Assembly (NCBI RefSeq): GCF_000764665.1
Contig: NZ_JRGM01000012.1
Coordinates: 62,001-126,000, forward strand
DNA: 64,000 bases
Direction: 5' to 3'
Origin: Aeromonas lacus
GTDB taxonomy: Bacteria > Pseudomonadota > Gammaproteobacteria > Enterobacterales > Aeromonadaceae
Both the position numbers and the translations under genes were made by a program. Every line of letters begins with the position of its first letter. Positions within the stretch are counted from its first letter, which is position 1. Positions 19,298 through 25,879 of the stretch are shown here, piece by piece. The notes under the pieces were generated by a model. That model searched no databases. It had not been told where the DNA came from and saw only the letters and a list, made by a program, of their open reading frames with translations.

Positions 19298-21220
19298 ATG
19301 CTGAAACAACGCATCGAGATGCGCGATCACAGTGCCGAGGGCAATCTGTTCTTCCGGCGCACTCTGGTAGCCTACATCGGCATCGTCGTGCTGATGCTGG
19401 TGCTGCTGGGCAATCTCTATTACCTGCAGGTCGAGTCCTACGACACCTACCAGACCCGCTCCAACTCCAACCGTATCCGGGTGGTGCCGGTGGCGCCGCC
19501 GCGCGGCCTCATCTATGACACCAACGGCGTGCTGCTGGCGGAAAACCGCCCCGTCTACAGTCTGGAGATAGTCCCCGAAGAGACGCCGGATCTGGCCAAA
19601 ACCGCCGATGAGCTGGTCGCCCTGCTGGGTCTGCCGGAGGGAACAAAAGAGAAGTTTCTGGCCGAAGTGAAGCGCCAGCGCCGCTTCAAGCCGGTCGCCC
19701 TCTACGAGAAGCTGACCGAGTATCAGGTGGCGCTCTTTTCGGTCAACCAGCACAACTACCCGGGTGCAAGCATCGAGGCTTACCTCAAGCGCTACTATCC
19801 GTTTGGCGACACCCTCACCCATGCGCTGGGTTATGTGGCCAAGATCAACACCCGCGACGTGGAGCGCCTCGACAAGGAAGACAAGCTCGCCAACTACGCA
19901 GCCACCAAGGATATCGGCAAGCAGGGGGTGGAGAAGTATTACGAGGATCAGCTGCACGGCGTGGCGGGCTATCAGGAGGTCGAGGTCAACAACCGCGGCC
20001 GGATTGTCCGCACCCTCAAGTTCCAGCCCCCCGTTCCGGGCAAGGATATCTACCTCAACATCGATGTGCGGCTGCAGCTCAAGGCCCAGCAGTTGCTGGC
20101 CGGCCAGCGCGGTGCCATCGTGATGATGGATCCCAAGACCGGCGCCATTCTGGCCATGGAGTCGAGCCCGAGCTATGACCCCAACCTGTTCGTGACCGGT
20201 ATCTCGGGCCCCAACTACTCGGCGCTGCTCAACGATTCGGCGCGGCCGCTGGTCAACCGCACCACCCAGGGCATCTATGCCCCCGCCTCCACCGTCAAAC
20301 CCATGATGTCCATCATGGGCCTCAACGAAGGGGCCATAACCCCGGGCTATCGCTACTTCGGTGGCCCCAGCTTCTCCATTCCCGGTACCACCAAGAAGTT
20401 CCGCGACTGGCGCCGCTGGGGTCATGGCTGGCTTGATGTCTATCGCGCCATCGAGGTATCGGCCGATACCTACTTCTACGATCTCGCCTACCGGGTCGGC
20501 ATCGACAAGATCCACAGCTATATGACCAAGTTTGGCTTCGGTCAGTACACCGGGGTCGACCTCTATGAGGAGAGCAAGGGGGTCATGCCGTCCCGCGACT
20601 GGAAGATGGCTCGCTGGCGCCAGCCCTGGTATCAGGGGGACACCATCTCCATCGGTATCGGTCAGGGCTACTGGAGCGCCACCCCGCTTCAGCTGGCCAA
20701 GGCGATCAGCATCCTGACCCAGAACGGTCACGACGTCACTCCGCACCTGCTCAAGAGCACCGCCTCGCAGGCGGGCGTGGTCGATGCCCCGGTCAACCCC
20801 AACATCGCCCTCAAGCTCAAGAACGACAGCTTCTGGAAAGTGGCGCAAGAGGGGATGTGGCGCGTCAACCATGGCAGCGAAGGCAGTGGTCGCCTGTCGT
20901 TTGCCAAGGCACCCTACTCCTCGGGCGGCAAGTCTGGCACCGCTCAGGTGGTCGGTCTGAAAGAGAACCAGGTCTACAACATCAAAACCGTCAAGGCGGA
21001 ACATCGCGACAATGCGCTATTCGTCGCTTATGCCCCCTTCGAAGCCCCCAAGGCGGTCGTTGCGCTGGTGCTGGAAAACTCCATTGGTGGTGGTGGCGGC
21101 CGTGCCGCATCGCCCATCGCCCGCCAGATGATGGATGCCTTCCTGCTGCCGCCCGAACCACAACTGCCACCGGCACCGGAAAAGCCGTCCAAACCGAGTG
21201 AGGTTGCAACCAATGAGTAA
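19298..21220 (+). CDS. mrdA: Peptidoglycan transpeptidase PBP2
   Basis: Class B penicillin-binding protein of the elongasome; crosslinks side-wall peptidoglycan with RodA. 640 aa. Order: short cytoplasmic N-terminus, one membrane helix ([23 protein letters not shown]), dimerisation/pedestal domain with RGLIYDTNG, then the transpeptidase domain with nucleophile Ser331 in STVK, SAD (VSADTYFYD) and KSGT ([10 protein letters not shown]). It has an extended Pro/Lys-rich tail. The ATG follows GAGGTAAAGGC. Its stop overlaps the rodA ATG by eight bases. Confidence 0.96.
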
Positions 21221-22316
21221 TTCAGCCCGCCAGCAGAGTATCTGGTACAAACTGCACATCGATCTGCCCCTGCTGCTGGGGTTGCTGGCCGTAGTTGCCC
21301 TCTCCATGGTGGTGCTCTACTCCGCCTCAGGCCAGGATATGGACTCCATCGTGCGCCAGCTGGTGCGCGGCGGACTCGCCTTCGCCCTGATGATCGGCAT
21401 GGCCCAGCTGCCACCCTCCCTCTATGCCCGCTGGTCGGTGCCGCTGTTTGTCGGGGTAGTGCTGCTGCTCATCGCGGTGGACGTGTTCGGCCATATCGGC
21501 AAGGGGGCCCAGCGCTGGCTCGACTTGGGCTTTATGAAGTTCCAGCCCTCCGAGGTGATGAAGCTCTCCATGCCCATCATGGTGGCCGCCTGGCTCAGCC
21601 GTCACTCGCTGCCCCCCAAACTCAGCCACGTGGTGATAGCCCTCATCATGGTGCTGCTGCCGACCCTGCTGATTGCCGCCCAGCCCGACCTTGGCACCTC
21701 CATTCTGGTGGCGGCCTCCGGCTTCTTCGTCATCTTCCTGGCGGGGCTCAGCTGGTGGCTGATCGGACTGGCGGTGCTGCTGATCGCGGCCTTTATGCCG
21801 GTGCTCTGGTTCTTCCTGATGCACGACTATCAGCGCCAGCGGGTCATGATGCTGATCGACCCGGAGAAAGACCCGCTCGGCCGCGGCTATCACATCATCC
21901 AGTCCAAGATTGCCATCGGCTCCGGCGGCGTCTTTGGCAAGGGGTGGCTGCAGGGCACCCAGTCTCAGCTCGAGTTTCTGCCCGAGCGCCACACCGACTT
22001 CATCTTCGCGGTATTCAGCGAGGAGTTCGGTCTGGTAGGGGTTGCGCTACTGCTGGTGCTCTATCTCTACGTCATCAGCCGCTGCCTCTTTATCTCGATG
22101 CAGGCCCAGAACAGCTTTGAACGGCTGCTGGGTGGCGCCATCACCCTCACCTTCTTCGTCTATGTGTTCGTCAACATGGGCATGGTGAGCGGCATTCTGC
22201 CGGTGGTAGGGGTTCCCCTACCGCTGGTGAGCTATGGCGGCACCTCCATGGTGACCCTGATGGCCGGCTTCGGAATACTGATGTCCATTCAGACCCACAG
22301 AAGGCTGCTGGCATGA
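21213..22316 (+). CDS. mrdB: Peptidoglycan glycosyltransferase RodA
   Basis: SEDS-family polymerase that makes glycan strands for elongation together with PBP2. 367 aa, ten hydrophobic segments. The family signatures [55 protein letters not shown] and the C-terminal [17 protein letters not shown] are all present. Its end, THRRLLA, is normal, so this first copy is an intact protein. The last ~40 codons are repeated twice more immediately downstream, and its stop overlaps an ATG of the first repeat ORF. Confidence 0.96.
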
Positions 22317-22450
22317 TGAGGTGGATGTATTCTGCTGGTGGTAGGGGCCCCCTGCCGTTAGTGAGTTATAGCGGCACCGCCATGGTGACCCTGATGGCCG
22401 GATTCGGAATACTGATGTCCATTCAGACCCACAGAAGACTGCTGGCATGA
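22316..22450 (+). CDS. 44-residue ORF, first rodA-tail repeat
   Basis: ATG overlaps the rodA stop (ATGA). The product begins [12 protein letters not shown] and then follows the RodA tail in frame: [18 protein letters not shown] and the RRLLA end. It contains a potential membrane helix but not the preceding RodA segments. Its stop overlaps the ATG of the next repeat. Probably a translated duplication product; a functional role is not suggested by sequence alone. Confidence 0.4.
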   Translation: MRWMYSAGGRGPLPLVSYSGTAMVTLMAGFGILMSIQTHRRLLA

Positions 22451-22584
22451 TGAGGTGGATATATTCTGCCGGTGGTAGGGGCCCCCTGCCGTTAGTGAGT
22501 TATAGCGACACCTCCATGGTGACCCTGATGGCAGGTTTTGGCATACTGATGTCCATCCAGACTCATAGAAGACTGCTTGCCTGA
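22450..22584 (+). CDS. 44-residue ORF, second rodA-tail repeat
   Basis: Second downstream copy: MRWIYSAGGRGP then the RodA tail [18 protein letters not shown] and the RRLLA end. Several differences from the preceding copy are silent (for example GGC/GGA, CAT/CAC, CTT/CTG). Start and stop both overlap neighbours as ATGA, so it bridges the first repeat ORF to mltB. It probably carries the ancestral 3' end of rodA, since its junction with mltB is the one still in use. Confidence 0.4.
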   Translation: MRWIYSAGGRGPLPLVSYSDTSMVTLMAGFGILMSIQTHRRLLA

Positions 22585-23585
22585 TGCGTCTGGTTGGGTT
22601 GTTGCTCTCGCTCGTTGCCCTTACGGCAGAGGCGGCCGTCGAACCTGCCGGGCTCGCCATGCTCGCCGAACAGCAGCAGGTGCCGTTGGCGGAGTTGCAG
22701 GCGGCGGTGGCCAGCGCCCGGCTAAGGCAGGAGGTGCTCGACACCATCAGCCGCCCGTGGGAGGCCAAGCCCTGGCACCGCTACCGGCCGCTGTTCGTCA
22801 CCCCGGATCGCATCCGGGATGGCCTGCAGTTCTGGCAGCATCATGCCGCCACGCTGGCGCGAGCCGAGCAGACCTATCGGGTACCGGCCTCGCTTATCGT
22901 GGCCATCATCGGCATCGAGACCTTCTACGGTCGCCAGATGGGCAGTCATCCGGTGCTGGACAGCCTCTACACCCTGGGGTTTCACTACCCCGAGCGCAGC
23001 GACTTCTTTGCCAAGGAGTTTGCCCAGCTGGTATTGCTGGCCAAAGAGGAGGGGTGGCAACTCGATACCCTCAAGGGCTCCTATGCCGGAGCCATGGGGA
23101 TGGGGCAGTTCATGCCCTCCAGCTATCGCCACTACGCCGTCGATTTTGACGGCGATGGCAAACGGGATCTCTTCGCCAATCCGGCCGATGCCATCGGCAG
23201 CGTGGCCAACTACTTCGCCAGCCACCAGTGGCGCTGGGGCGAAGCGGTGGTCGAGCCGGCCCAGATCGGGCTGATGGCGGTTGATCCCCTGCTCAGGCGA
23301 GAGCCCGAGCTGACACAACAGTGGTCAGAACTGGCGGCGGCAGGGATTGAGCTCGCCACGCCGCTGGCCCCGCAGACGCCGGTCAAGTTACTGGCATTTG
23401 ATCAAGCCGATGGACCGGAATACTGGGTCGCACGGCATAACTTTTATGTGATCACCCGCTACAATCGCAGCCCGCTCTACGCGATGGCGGTGTATCAACT
23501 TAGCCAAGCCATTCAGGAAGCGTATGCATCTTCGTCACAAACTCCTCCCGCTCAGCCTGAGCTTGTTGCTGGCCGCCTGCAGTAG
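22584..23585 (+). CDS. mltB: Lytic murein transglycosylase B (MltB/SltB family)
   Basis: Cleaves the MurNAc-GlcNAc bond of peptidoglycan with formation of anhydro-muramyl ends. 333 aa. The catalytic glutamate is in IIGIETFYGR, and the family blocks GSYAGAMGMGQFMPSSY, DFDGDGKRDLF and NPADAIGSVANYF are complete. The N-terminus (RLVGLLLSLVALTAEAA) is a cleavable signal with no lipobox Cys, so this is a soluble periplasmic form rather than a lipoprotein. The ATG overlaps the last rodA-repeat stop. Its 3' end runs 62 bases into rlpA in another frame. Confidence 0.94.
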   Translation: MRLVGLLLSLVALTAEAAVEPAGLAMLAEQQQVPLAELQAAVASARLRQEVLDTISRPWEAKPWHRYRPLFVTPDRIRDGLQFWQHHAATLARAEQTYRVPASLIVAIIGIETFYGRQMGSHPVLDSLYTLGFHYPERSDFFAKEFAQLVLLAKEEGWQLDTLKGSYAGAMGMGQFMPSSYRHYAVDFDGDGKRDLFANPADAIGSVANYFASHQWRWGEAVVEPAQIGLMAVDPLLRREPELTQQWSELAAAGIELATPLAPQTPVKLLAFDQADGPEYWVARHNFYVITRYNRSPLYAMAVYQLSQAIQEAYASSSQTPPAQPELVAGRLQ

Positions 23586-24495
23586 CAGCCAGCCGGAACA
23601 GTCCGCCCCGGTCGATCTGCCGCCCGCCAGCAAACCGCCCGTTATCGAGATCCCGCAAGCCACCGGCGCCATCCCGCGTCCCGAGCCCCTGAGCACCAGC
23701 GGCAACCGGGACTACTGGCGCGGTCAGGAGAAATTCGAGGTGTGGCGCGATATCAAGCACTACAGCGAAGAGGGCACTGCCAGCTGGCTCTCCCCCTCCC
23801 TCGATGGCCAGAAGACCGCCAACGGCGATGTGCAGGACAGCAAGCTGTTCAGCGCCGCCCACCGCAACCTGCCGCTGCCCAGCTACGTGCGGGTCACCAA
23901 TCTGGACAACGGACTGGAGACCATAGTGCGAGTCAACGATCGCGGCCCGTTTGACAGCAGTCGCCTGATCGACCTCTCCCCCGCCGCCGCCAAACAGCTC
24001 GAGATGATCGAGGGGGGCGAGGCGCGGGTGCGGCTCGAACTCATCAACGACACCCCGGATCAGATGGTGAGCATGGAGCCGATGAAGCCCATCGAGATGA
24101 CGCCGACCGCCCCGGCTGCCGCCGCTGCACCTCAGGCGATGTCACAGGATGGCTTCATCGGTCAACCGACCGAGCTCGCCATGGCTGCGCCGGCCGCAGA
24201 AGCGGCGCCCGTCAAGGCCCCCGCCGCCAAGCCAGCCAAAGCGGCACCGGCCAAGGCGGCAGCCCCTGCCAGCAGCGGTGACGGCAAGATGATCCAGGTA
24301 CTGGCCAGCGGCTCCCAGCAGCGGGCCGAGGCGATGGGCAAGGTGATGACCCAGCGTTATGGCCTCCCCTACCGGATCGATAGCCATGGCGCCATCTTCC
24401 GGGTGCTGATTGGCCCTGTCGCGGCCGACCAGCAAGCCGCAACATTGGAAAAAGTACGTCAGGGTGGCCTCGAACAGGCCTTTATCGTTCCCTGA
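23524..24495 (+). CDS. rlpA: Septal ring lytic transglycosylase RlpA
   Basis: Lipoprotein that acts on denuded glycan strands at the septum. 323 aa: signal with lipobox LLAAC (acylated Cys at about residue 19), a double-psi beta-barrel domain (GTASWLSPSLDGQKTANGD, VRVNDRGPFDSSRLIDLS, with the catalytic-type Asp), a long Ala/Pro/Lys-rich linker and a C-terminal SPOR domain (IQVLASGSQQRAEAM) that binds denuded peptidoglycan. The lipobox fixes the start even though it lies inside the mltB frame. Confidence 0.94.
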   Translation: MHLRHKLLPLSLSLLLAACSSSQPEQSAPVDLPPASKPPVIEIPQATGAIPRPEPLSTSGNRDYWRGQEKFEVWRDIKHYSEEGTASWLSPSLDGQKTANGDVQDSKLFSAAHRNLPLPSYVRVTNLDNGLETIVRVNDRGPFDSSRLIDLSPAAAKQLEMIEGGEARVRLELINDTPDQMVSMEPMKPIEMTPTAPAAAAAPQAMSQDGFIGQPTELAMAAPAAEAAPVKAPAAKPAKAAPAKAAAPASSGDGKMIQVLASGSQQRAEAMGKVMTQRYGLPYRIDSHGAIFRVLIGPVAADQQAATLEKVRQGGLEQAFIVP

Positions 24496-24682: not shown

Positions 24683-25879
24683 ATGTCCAAATTTGCCCGT
24701 TCAGTTCTTCTGGCCTCACTGATCAGCGCCACCGCTCAGGCCAATACCCCGATGCCGGCTCCGACTCCGAACAGCAACCCGGTTGTTGTTCCCGCCGCAC
24801 CCGAGATCTCCGCCAAAGCCCATATTCTGATCGACTACTACTCGGGTCAGGTACTGGCCGAGCAGAACGCCGAAGAGCGTCTGCCGCCCGCCAGTCTGAC
24901 CAAGATGATGACCTCCTACATCATCGGCCAGGAGCTGCTGAAGGGGAACATCAAGCGCACCGACATGGTGACCATCAGCCAGAACGCCTGGTCCAAGAAC
25001 TACTCCGACTCCTCCAAGATGTTTATCGAGGTGGGCAAGCAGGTCTCCGTCGATGACCTGAACAAGGGCATCATCATCCAGTCCGGCAACGACGCCTGCG
25101 TCGCCATGGCCGAATTCCTGGCCGGCAGCACCGACTCCTTCGCCAGCCTGATGAACAGCTGGGCCGCCAAGCTCGGCATGAAAGACAGCCACTTCATGAA
25201 CCCGCACGGTCTGGATGCGGAAGGCCACTACAGTACCGCTCACGACATGGCCCGTCTGGGTCAGGCGCTGATCCGCGACCTGCCGGAGGAGTACAAGATC
25301 TACTCCCAGAAGTCCTTCGTCTTCAACGGCATCACCCAGCACAACCGCAACCGTCTGCTGTGGGATCAATCCCTGCAAGTTGACGGCATCAAGACCGGCC
25401 ACGTCAGCCAGGTCGGCTACAACCTGGTCTCCTCCGCCACCAACAACGAAGGCATGCGCCTGATCGCCGTGGTGCTGGGTGCCAATAGCGAAGCCTCCCG
25501 CGCCGCCGAGAGCAAGAAGCTGCTCACCTACGGCTTCCGTTTCTTCCAGAGCCTGACCCCCTACAAGGCGGGCACCGTACTGGTCACCCAGAAGATCTGG
25601 ATGGGTGACAAGCCGGAAGTGAAACTGGGCGTCGACAAGGATATCTCCGTGCTGGTCACCCGCGGTCAGGGCAACAACCTGAAGGCCGACTTCCAGCTTG
25701 AGAGCGAACTGAAAGCACCGCTGGCCAAGGGTCAGCGTGTCGGTACCGTGTTCCTGAAACAGGGCGACAAGGAGATCAAGCAGGTGCCGCTGGTTGCGCT
25801 GGAAGATGTGCAAGAGGGTGGCCTGATGAGCCGTCTGTGGGACTACCTGGTGATGCTGGTCTCCAGCTGGTTCAAGTAA
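24683..25879 (+). CDS. dacA: D-alanyl-D-alanine carboxypeptidase (PBP5/6)
   Basis: Removes the terminal D-Ala of pentapeptide stems, tuning cross-linking and cell shape. 398 aa. It has a signal ending ATAQA, an Asn/Pro-rich spacer, and the penicilloyl-serine transferase motifs Ser71-Lys74 (SLTK), Ser134-Asn136 (SGN) and Lys237-Gly239 (KTG), then the PBP5-type beta-rich C-terminal domain and a terminal amphipathic helix (LWDYLVMLVSSWFK) that anchors it to the inner membrane. An AGGAATTTCAAG ribosome site precedes the ATG. Confidence 0.95.
   Translation: MSKFARSVLLASLISATAQANTPMPAPTPNSNPVVVPAAPEISAKAHILIDYYSGQVLAEQNAEERLPPASLTKMMTSYIIGQELLKGNIKRTDMVTISQNAWSKNYSDSSKMFIEVGKQVSVDDLNKGIIIQSGNDACVAMAEFLAGSTDSFASLMNSWAAKLGMKDSHFMNPHGLDAEGHYSTAHDMARLGQALIRDLPEEYKIYSQKSFVFNGITQHNRNRLLWDQSLQVDGIKTGHVSQVGYNLVSSATNNEGMRLIAVVLGANSEASRAAESKKLLTYGFRFFQSLTPYKAGTVLVTQKIWMGDKPEVKLGVDKDISVLVTRGQGNNLKADFQLESELKAPLAKGQRVGTVFLKQGDKEIKQVPLVALEDVQEGGLMSRLWDYLVMLVSSWFK

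Follow-up and report, generated by a model that had tools for sequence, protein, structure and literature searches.

Tandem copies of the rodA 3' end form overlapping reading frames between rodA and mltB in Aeromonas

Introduction

In a 64,000-nucleotide stretch of Aeromonas lacus DNA (contig NZ_JRGM01000012.1, positions 62,001 to 126,000; hereafter the window), the end of the cell-shape gene rodA is present in three tandem copies, and two short reading frames stand between rodA and mltB. This raises the question of how additional cistrons came to be placed between two genes without breaking either of them, and whether they matter for the coupling of mltB to rodA, for the peptides that they could encode, or not at all. 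The initial annotation of the locus proposed recombination with a diverged allele, and either selection for coupling or peptides with a role. Its observation stands with small corrections and the recombination is supported; a role for the peptides is unlikely.

Anatomy of the locus

The array lies in a cell-wall gene cluster made of a PBP2-class transpeptidase gene, rodA, two extra units, mltB, an rlpA-like gene and a carboxypeptidase gene. The names mrdA-like, rlpA-like and dacA-like are those that we take to fit these genes. The features are as follows.

19298..21220, + strand: mrdA-like gene (PBP2-class transpeptidase), an ORF overlapping the rodA start (Pfam Transpeptidase, E 6.8e-67; PBP_dimer, E 6.7e-46)
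21213..22316, + strand: rodA, intact, 367 aa, including repeat copy 1 (Pfam FTSW_RODA_SPOVE, E 9.6e-120)
22254..22316, + strand: last 63 nt of rodA copy 1, a foreign haplotype (9/63 differences to sister G016, 1/63 to the distant carrier G023)
22316..22336, + strand: junction 1, an mltB-like start (ATGAGGTGGAT) fused to rodA ATTCTGC, from sequence comparison
22316..22450, + strand: frame of extra unit 1, 44 aa, ending on the next start (Pfam FTSW_RODA_SPOVE, E 5.5e-6, below the cut-off with 26.0 of 26.4 bits)
22450..22470, + strand: junction 2, the same fused start as junction 1, from sequence comparison
22450..22584, + strand: frame of extra unit 2, 44 aa, ending as TGATG on the mltB start (Pfam, E 5.1e-5, 22.9 of 26.4 bits)
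22584..23585, + strand: mltB (lytic transglycosylase), 333 aa (Pfam SLT_2, E 8.2e-97)
23524..24495, + strand: rlpA-like gene (DPBB and SPOR domains), an ORF overlapping the mltB end (Pfam DPBB_1, E 4.2e-18; SPOR, E 8e-6)
24683..25879, + strand: dacA-like gene (D-Ala-D-Ala carboxypeptidase), an ORF (Pfam Peptidase_S11, E 1.9e-93; PBP5_C)

If the rlpA-like gene begins at its first ATG, it shares 62 nt (23524-23585) with mltB, read in another frame. No Rfam family matched positions 21000-24000 of the window at E 0.1.

The presence of three tandem copies was confirmed by Tandem Repeats Finder, which reported positions 22194-22586 with a period of 134, 2.9 copies and a score of 630; the remaining three tandem-repeat rows of the 64 kb score 50-59. 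As annotated, copy 1 completes an intact RodA, and copies 2 and 3 are open frames of 44 codons; alternative upstream ATGs at 22313 (extra unit 1) and 22447 (extra unit 2) would each give 45 codons. The spacing, initially given as 131 and 134 bp, needs correction: the tails are 134 and 134 bp apart in the RodA frame. Measured at ATTCTG (22194, 22329 and 22463), it is 135 and 134, because copies 2 and 3 lack one base between ATTCTG and CCCCTG. Between copies 2 and 3 there are 13 differences over 134 positions (register 22315-22448 against 22449-22582) rather than 12, and they are concentrated in the last third as had been noticed, with 9 of the 13 within 22399-22447. Every boundary had been described as ATGA. 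This is so for the first two (GGCATGATGAG), which allow either a 4-nt ATGA or a 1-nt TGATG overlap, but not for the last (TGCCTGATGCG), which allows TGATG only.

A further correction concerns the head of each extra frame (ATGAGGTGGAT...), which is not derived from rodA and is fused to it from ATTCTGCC onward. This head resembles the start of mltB, for instance ATGAGATGGGGTTGG in G011 and ATGAGATGGGGCTGG in the carrier G010; ATGAGGTGG likewise resembles the mltB start of several single-copy relatives (G011 and G028, ATGAGATGGG) and of G010. The unit is best read as a duplication that starts inside the tail of rodA and reaches the opening codons of an mltB, and the state preceding it is seen in the single-copy relatives, 27 of 37 genomes including the sister G016. 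The junction is nearly identical in carriers whose own mltB starts differ (G015 with ATGCGACTG, G017 with ATGCATCGG, and also the window genome, G000), suggesting that it probably arose once. Independent duplication in each species was rejected as the main story on the same comparison. The window genome held no further copy of the junction, and one match with two mismatches lies elsewhere in it.

Distribution across Aeromonas and beyond

Counting the repeat units at the rodA-mltB junction of relatives, as the initial annotation had proposed, revealed that the array is not restricted to the window genome. All 37 Aeromonas genomes searched, one per species, carry rodA, and 10 of them have extra units, 12 in total. 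Two units each are found in the window genome and in G023, and one each in G005, G010, G015, G017, G019, G022, G030 and G034, where the count for G030 is of at least one unit, its array being cut by a contig end. The only second strain of a species that we saw, Aeromonas caviae KAM479, has a single tail; its rodA-mltB lies on a 4.9-Mb sequence deposited as a plasmid (NZ_AP026896.1, L122), which is probably the chromosome.

Outside the genus, none of 38 genomes of other Aeromonadaceae genera showed a tandem tail: 37 had one strong tail match and one (G071) only a weak one, and in genus g5 second weak matches lie elsewhere in the genome. The 80 rodA matches listed from the named collection include 17 Aeromonas loci, with the array in two species that are also carriers in the 37-genome set. 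Among these listed matches, none of the 63 non-Aeromonas rodA loci has a downstream tandem copy, and the second weak hit seen in 4 of the 63 falls inside rodA or on the opposite strand.

The rodA stop and the mltB start overlap in 33 of the 33 genomes with mltB directly downstream, and on this point the initial annotation is supported; this count excludes G006, G009, G027 and G029, which have no adjacent mltB. In these four genomes (L036, L038, L035 and L037, respectively) rodA is present without an overlapping mltB downstream, and the context of its stop differs. In G025 (L034) the mltB frame ends after 200 codons and tblastn matches go on in another frame, indicating either a broken mltB or an assembly error.

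Probable spread of the unit by recombination

The idea that copies came by recombination with a diverged allele is supported by the window genome. The last 63 nt of its copy 1 differ from the sister G016 at 9 positions and from the distant G023 at 1, and the preceding 1,041 nt of rodA show the reverse, with 37 differences to G016 and 106 to G023 (tail against the rest of rodA, Fisher test; 7e-4 for G016 and 0.025 for G023). Downstream, mltB is again close to G016 (19/999 differences). The foreign haplotype is confined to the last part of rodA and the array. Copy 3 had been proposed to be the ancestral rodA end with the original mltB junction. The junction part stands, since TGATGCGTCTGG is found in both the window and G016, but the tail is not an exact match: its closest counterparts are rodA tails from within the clade, with 8 differences to G001 and 11 to G016. 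That copy 3 represents the ancestral end is therefore likely but not exact.

The carriers are scattered over the genus. A rodA tree of 36 genomes, with 9 carriers placed on it, requires 8 changes, as compared with a mean of 8.1 when labels are shuffled (295 of 500 shuffles were as low), and on the mltB tree the 10 carriers need 9 changes (shuffled mean of 8.8). G030 was excluded from the rodA tree and from the clock test, and its copy 1 lacks one codon in the tail tests. The junction differs between carriers by only 0.06-0.07 per site, against 0.30 at synonymous sites of rodA (36 pairs of 9 carriers). A 17-base haplotype in a stretch of the rodA tail is limited to G000, G023 and G030, all of them carriers, and GCATGATGAG is found ahead of the junction in 7 carriers out of 10, against 0 of the 23 single-copy genomes with the overlap (Fisher test; P = 2.8e-5). 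The scattered presence, the low divergence of the junction and the foreign end of copy 1 together suggest that the unit most likely spread between species by homologous recombination.

Some carriers do not fit a simple transfer. In G017 both tails look native, each with 1 difference to G012 in the last 60 nt, yet the junction is the common one. The native last unit expected after a transfer is absent from G019, where copy 1 equals the sister exactly (0/60) and copy 2 differs at 6 positions, and from G010, where copy 1 is nearer to the sister (3 differences) than copy 2 is (7 differences). G022 and G023 were excluded from this comparison, as they are each other's sisters. Later homogenization between copies could explain the patterns of G017, G019 and G010. 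As an alternative to transfer, the junction could have been conserved by constraint during vertical descent, with many losses.

Reading frames and a putative ribosome relay

The units come in two lengths, 134 bp in 10 of 12 cases and 135 bp in the other 2 (G017 and G019). In the 134-bp units, the start opens a frame of 44 residues that stops on the next start through TGATG (through TAATG in G030). The same start in the 135-bp units reads in frame into mltB and gives frames of 381 and 384 aa (G017, L007, and G019, L012), which put 45 residues ahead of the MltB start, before a likely signal peptide. All 12 units keep the chain to mltB unbroken. Random indels that break the frames in relatives would have spoken against the proposed chain; they were looked for and none was found, as all 12 units are 134 or 135 bp long and the 135-bp ones are in frame with mltB. 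The base missing from the 134-bp units is not always the same: in G034 it is lost at TATT(C)TG (TATTTGCC), and near GGGG(T)CCCC in the remaining 134-bp units. Base loss would thus have occurred at least twice, unless it was shuffled by recombination.

Known overlapping pairs give a reason to expect translation across such boundaries. One study (PMC6728339) reported coupling for 13 of the 14 overlapping gene pairs that it tested, and according to a review (PMC12548453) the efficiency of coupling is highest when the spacing is -4 to +3 nt. Since rodA and mltB overlap as TGATG, restart of ribosomes at the unit, and then at mltB, would be expected by analogy. Against this assumed relay, among five Escherichia coli pairs in the same study (PMC6728339), bioBF was not coupled and menDH only at about 60%.

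We consider the following account probable as a whole. A tandem duplication in an Aeromonas ancestor would have fused the first mltB codons to the interior of the rodA 3' end, inserting between rodA and mltB a unit of about 135 bp (mltB start, rodA tail and stop/start overlap) that left both genes unbroken. Exchange between Aeromonas species, by homologous recombination within the rodA tail, would then have spread the unit, which would also be homogenized with copy 1 and be gained and lost frequently. Ribosomes ending rodA may restart at the ATG of the unit, make a 44-residue fragment (a short new head and the last 33 residues of RodA), stop on the next start and thereby reach mltB. The 135-bp unit has a frame that continues into mltB and would place 45 residues ahead of the MltB signal peptide; loss of one base would have converted it into the 134-bp unit that ends exactly at the next start. 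If restart is less than complete, each unit would lower MltB, so that the array might tune its amount; the fragment itself would be a by-product. We infer the direction from 135 to 134 bp, and the reverse order may also apply, with the 134-bp form ancestral and the 135-bp form resulting from gene conversion by copy 1.

Constraint on the extra tails and alternative explanations

The first alternative is that the array is a neutral passenger without any effect, carried by recombination and lost by slippage, whose frames are open as the copies are young and rewritten from functional rodA. We regard it as a serious contender, falling slightly short of an even chance. The unbroken frames had been taken initially as a sign of selection. 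Among 36 genomes, a single rodA tail has its RodA frame open in all 36, another frame open in 26 and the remaining frame open in 0; by arithmetic from these counts, a duplication of random phase would preserve the chain in about 57% of cases, and the unbroken chain is thus not strong evidence of selection. The argument for selection from open frames was dropped on these counts.

Of the last 33 residues of RodA, 31 are invariant over the 37 genomes. The extra tails differ from their own copy 1 by 70 synonymous and 14 nonsynonymous changes (pN/pS of 0.075, against 0.023 between true tails), and 14 of 84 is far below the 52.5% expected under free drift (P = 1e-11). This figure runs against neutrality. 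Purifying selection was nevertheless not accepted as its explanation, since recombination with functional rodA alleles leaves the same signal and the test cannot tell the two apart. A mosaic test leaves out every change that can be accounted for by a mosaic of the 37 true tails. It hides synonymous changes found in any of these tails and thus leans toward nonsynonymous ones, with the true tails as a leave-one-out control: private changes were 13 nonsynonymous to 31 synonymous in the 12 extra tails, versus 1 to 118 in the 37 true tails (Fisher test; P = 1e-7, and 7e-8 and 1e-6 at other switch costs). The 13 nonsynonymous changes fall on positions invariant in the 37 rodA tails, including the SYGG stretch; both window units are altered at invariant positions (G8S and S11A; G8S and G9D), and G034 has six such changes. 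By this comparison, constraint on the extra tails is relaxed, be it in part or entirely. The junction departs from its consensus by 4 nonsynonymous and 4 synonymous changes in 12 units, too few to judge or to indicate constraint. The relaxed tails, the junction and a scatter of carriers equal to that of shuffled labels all fit the neutral passenger.

A second alternative extends the ribosome relay proposed above by adding a selected function. Each unit would add a termination-restart step, and the exchanged, copy-number-variable stack of relays would set the ratio of RodA (the elongasome glycosyltransferase) to MltB. Output would be multiplied by the restart efficiency at every unit, allowing species to tune wall growth against cleavage, and selection acting on remodeling of the cell wall would keep and move the array. 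We hold this possibility to be rather unlikely. It agrees with the lack of space for a leader of mltB's own and the conserved overlap with rodA, with the relay being intact in all units, with the single-base loss at two or more different places (G034 against the rest), both yielding the RodA frame, and with the presence of the array in distant clades although repeats could delete. Against it stand the share of random phasings that give unbroken frames anyway, and the position of the GGGG(T)CCCC site in a G-run that folds as a hairpin in rodA itself as well as in the units. A mutation hot spot is thus a plausible alternative to selection for the base loss.

Peptides with a role, as the initial annotation had suggested, are not supported. 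A functional micropeptide would be the 44-residue fragment, containing the last membrane segment of RodA, acting on RodA, for example by competing with its C-terminal helix. The frame and a RodA-like tail are retained in 10 of 12 units, and the low pN/pS against the own copy points in the same direction. However, the start leads into another frame in the other 2 units, and the private changes hit residues invariant in 37 tails, which makes a RodA-like function of the peptide doubtful and a functional micropeptide very unlikely.

Direct repeats at gene ends are typical of the attachment sites of integrating elements, and the array could in principle be the footprint of an element using the rodA 3' end as its site. 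This is highly improbable: consecutive copies follow each other at 134 or 135 bp in all 10 carriers, without intervening sequence (for G030 as read from a single contig end), no element or remains of one was found between the repeats of any relative (12 of 12 extra units), and the array was found in no phage record and no viral contig, plasmids giving only the chromosome-sized Aeromonas caviae record, with a single copy. Finally, the array lies inside a 129-kb contig of a draft assembly with 196 contigs, but an assembly error is hardly credible, since the copies differ at 13 of 134 positions and arrays are present in three one-contig assemblies (G010, G015 and G023) and in an assembly of three contigs (G034).

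Implications and relation to known systems

If the relay works, Aeromonas offers a natural series of constructs in which rodA and mltB are separated by 0, 1 or 2 extra cistrons and the loss per termination-restart step could be tested, as could the use of such steps by bacteria to set protein ratios. Even if the array is neutral, it shows how two overlapping genes can acquire cistrons between them through a partial duplication and both stay intact, and that recombination can pass a piece of this kind from one species to another. A literature search, of partial coverage and judged on titles and the beginnings of abstracts, found no publication on this rodA-tail array.

The array is a variant built from partial tandem duplication, overlapping coupled genes and interspecies recombination, all of which are known. 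It resembles the coupled pairs with stop/start overlap described in PMC6728339 and PMC12548453 in the TGATG or ATGA overlap at each boundary between rodA, unit and mltB, an overlap found in all genomes with adjacent mltB as well as at the unit boundaries. It differs from them in that one or two extra cistrons copying the end of the upstream gene sit in the overlap, and coupling is here presumed by analogy.

Partial tandem duplications of gene 3' ends with concerted evolution are likewise similar: head-to-tail copies of part of a gene stand beside the intact gene with one shared, novel junction, and copies within one genome are often closest to each other or to those of other carriers. In contrast to these, the copies are headed by the start of another gene, an open relay is kept, and the number of units varies across the genus. 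Interspecies homologous recombination of housekeeping genes produces mosaic alleles in Aeromonas, and the foreign haplotype confined to the last part of rodA and the array would be of this kind; here, however, the piece transferred alters the number of cistrons in an operon.
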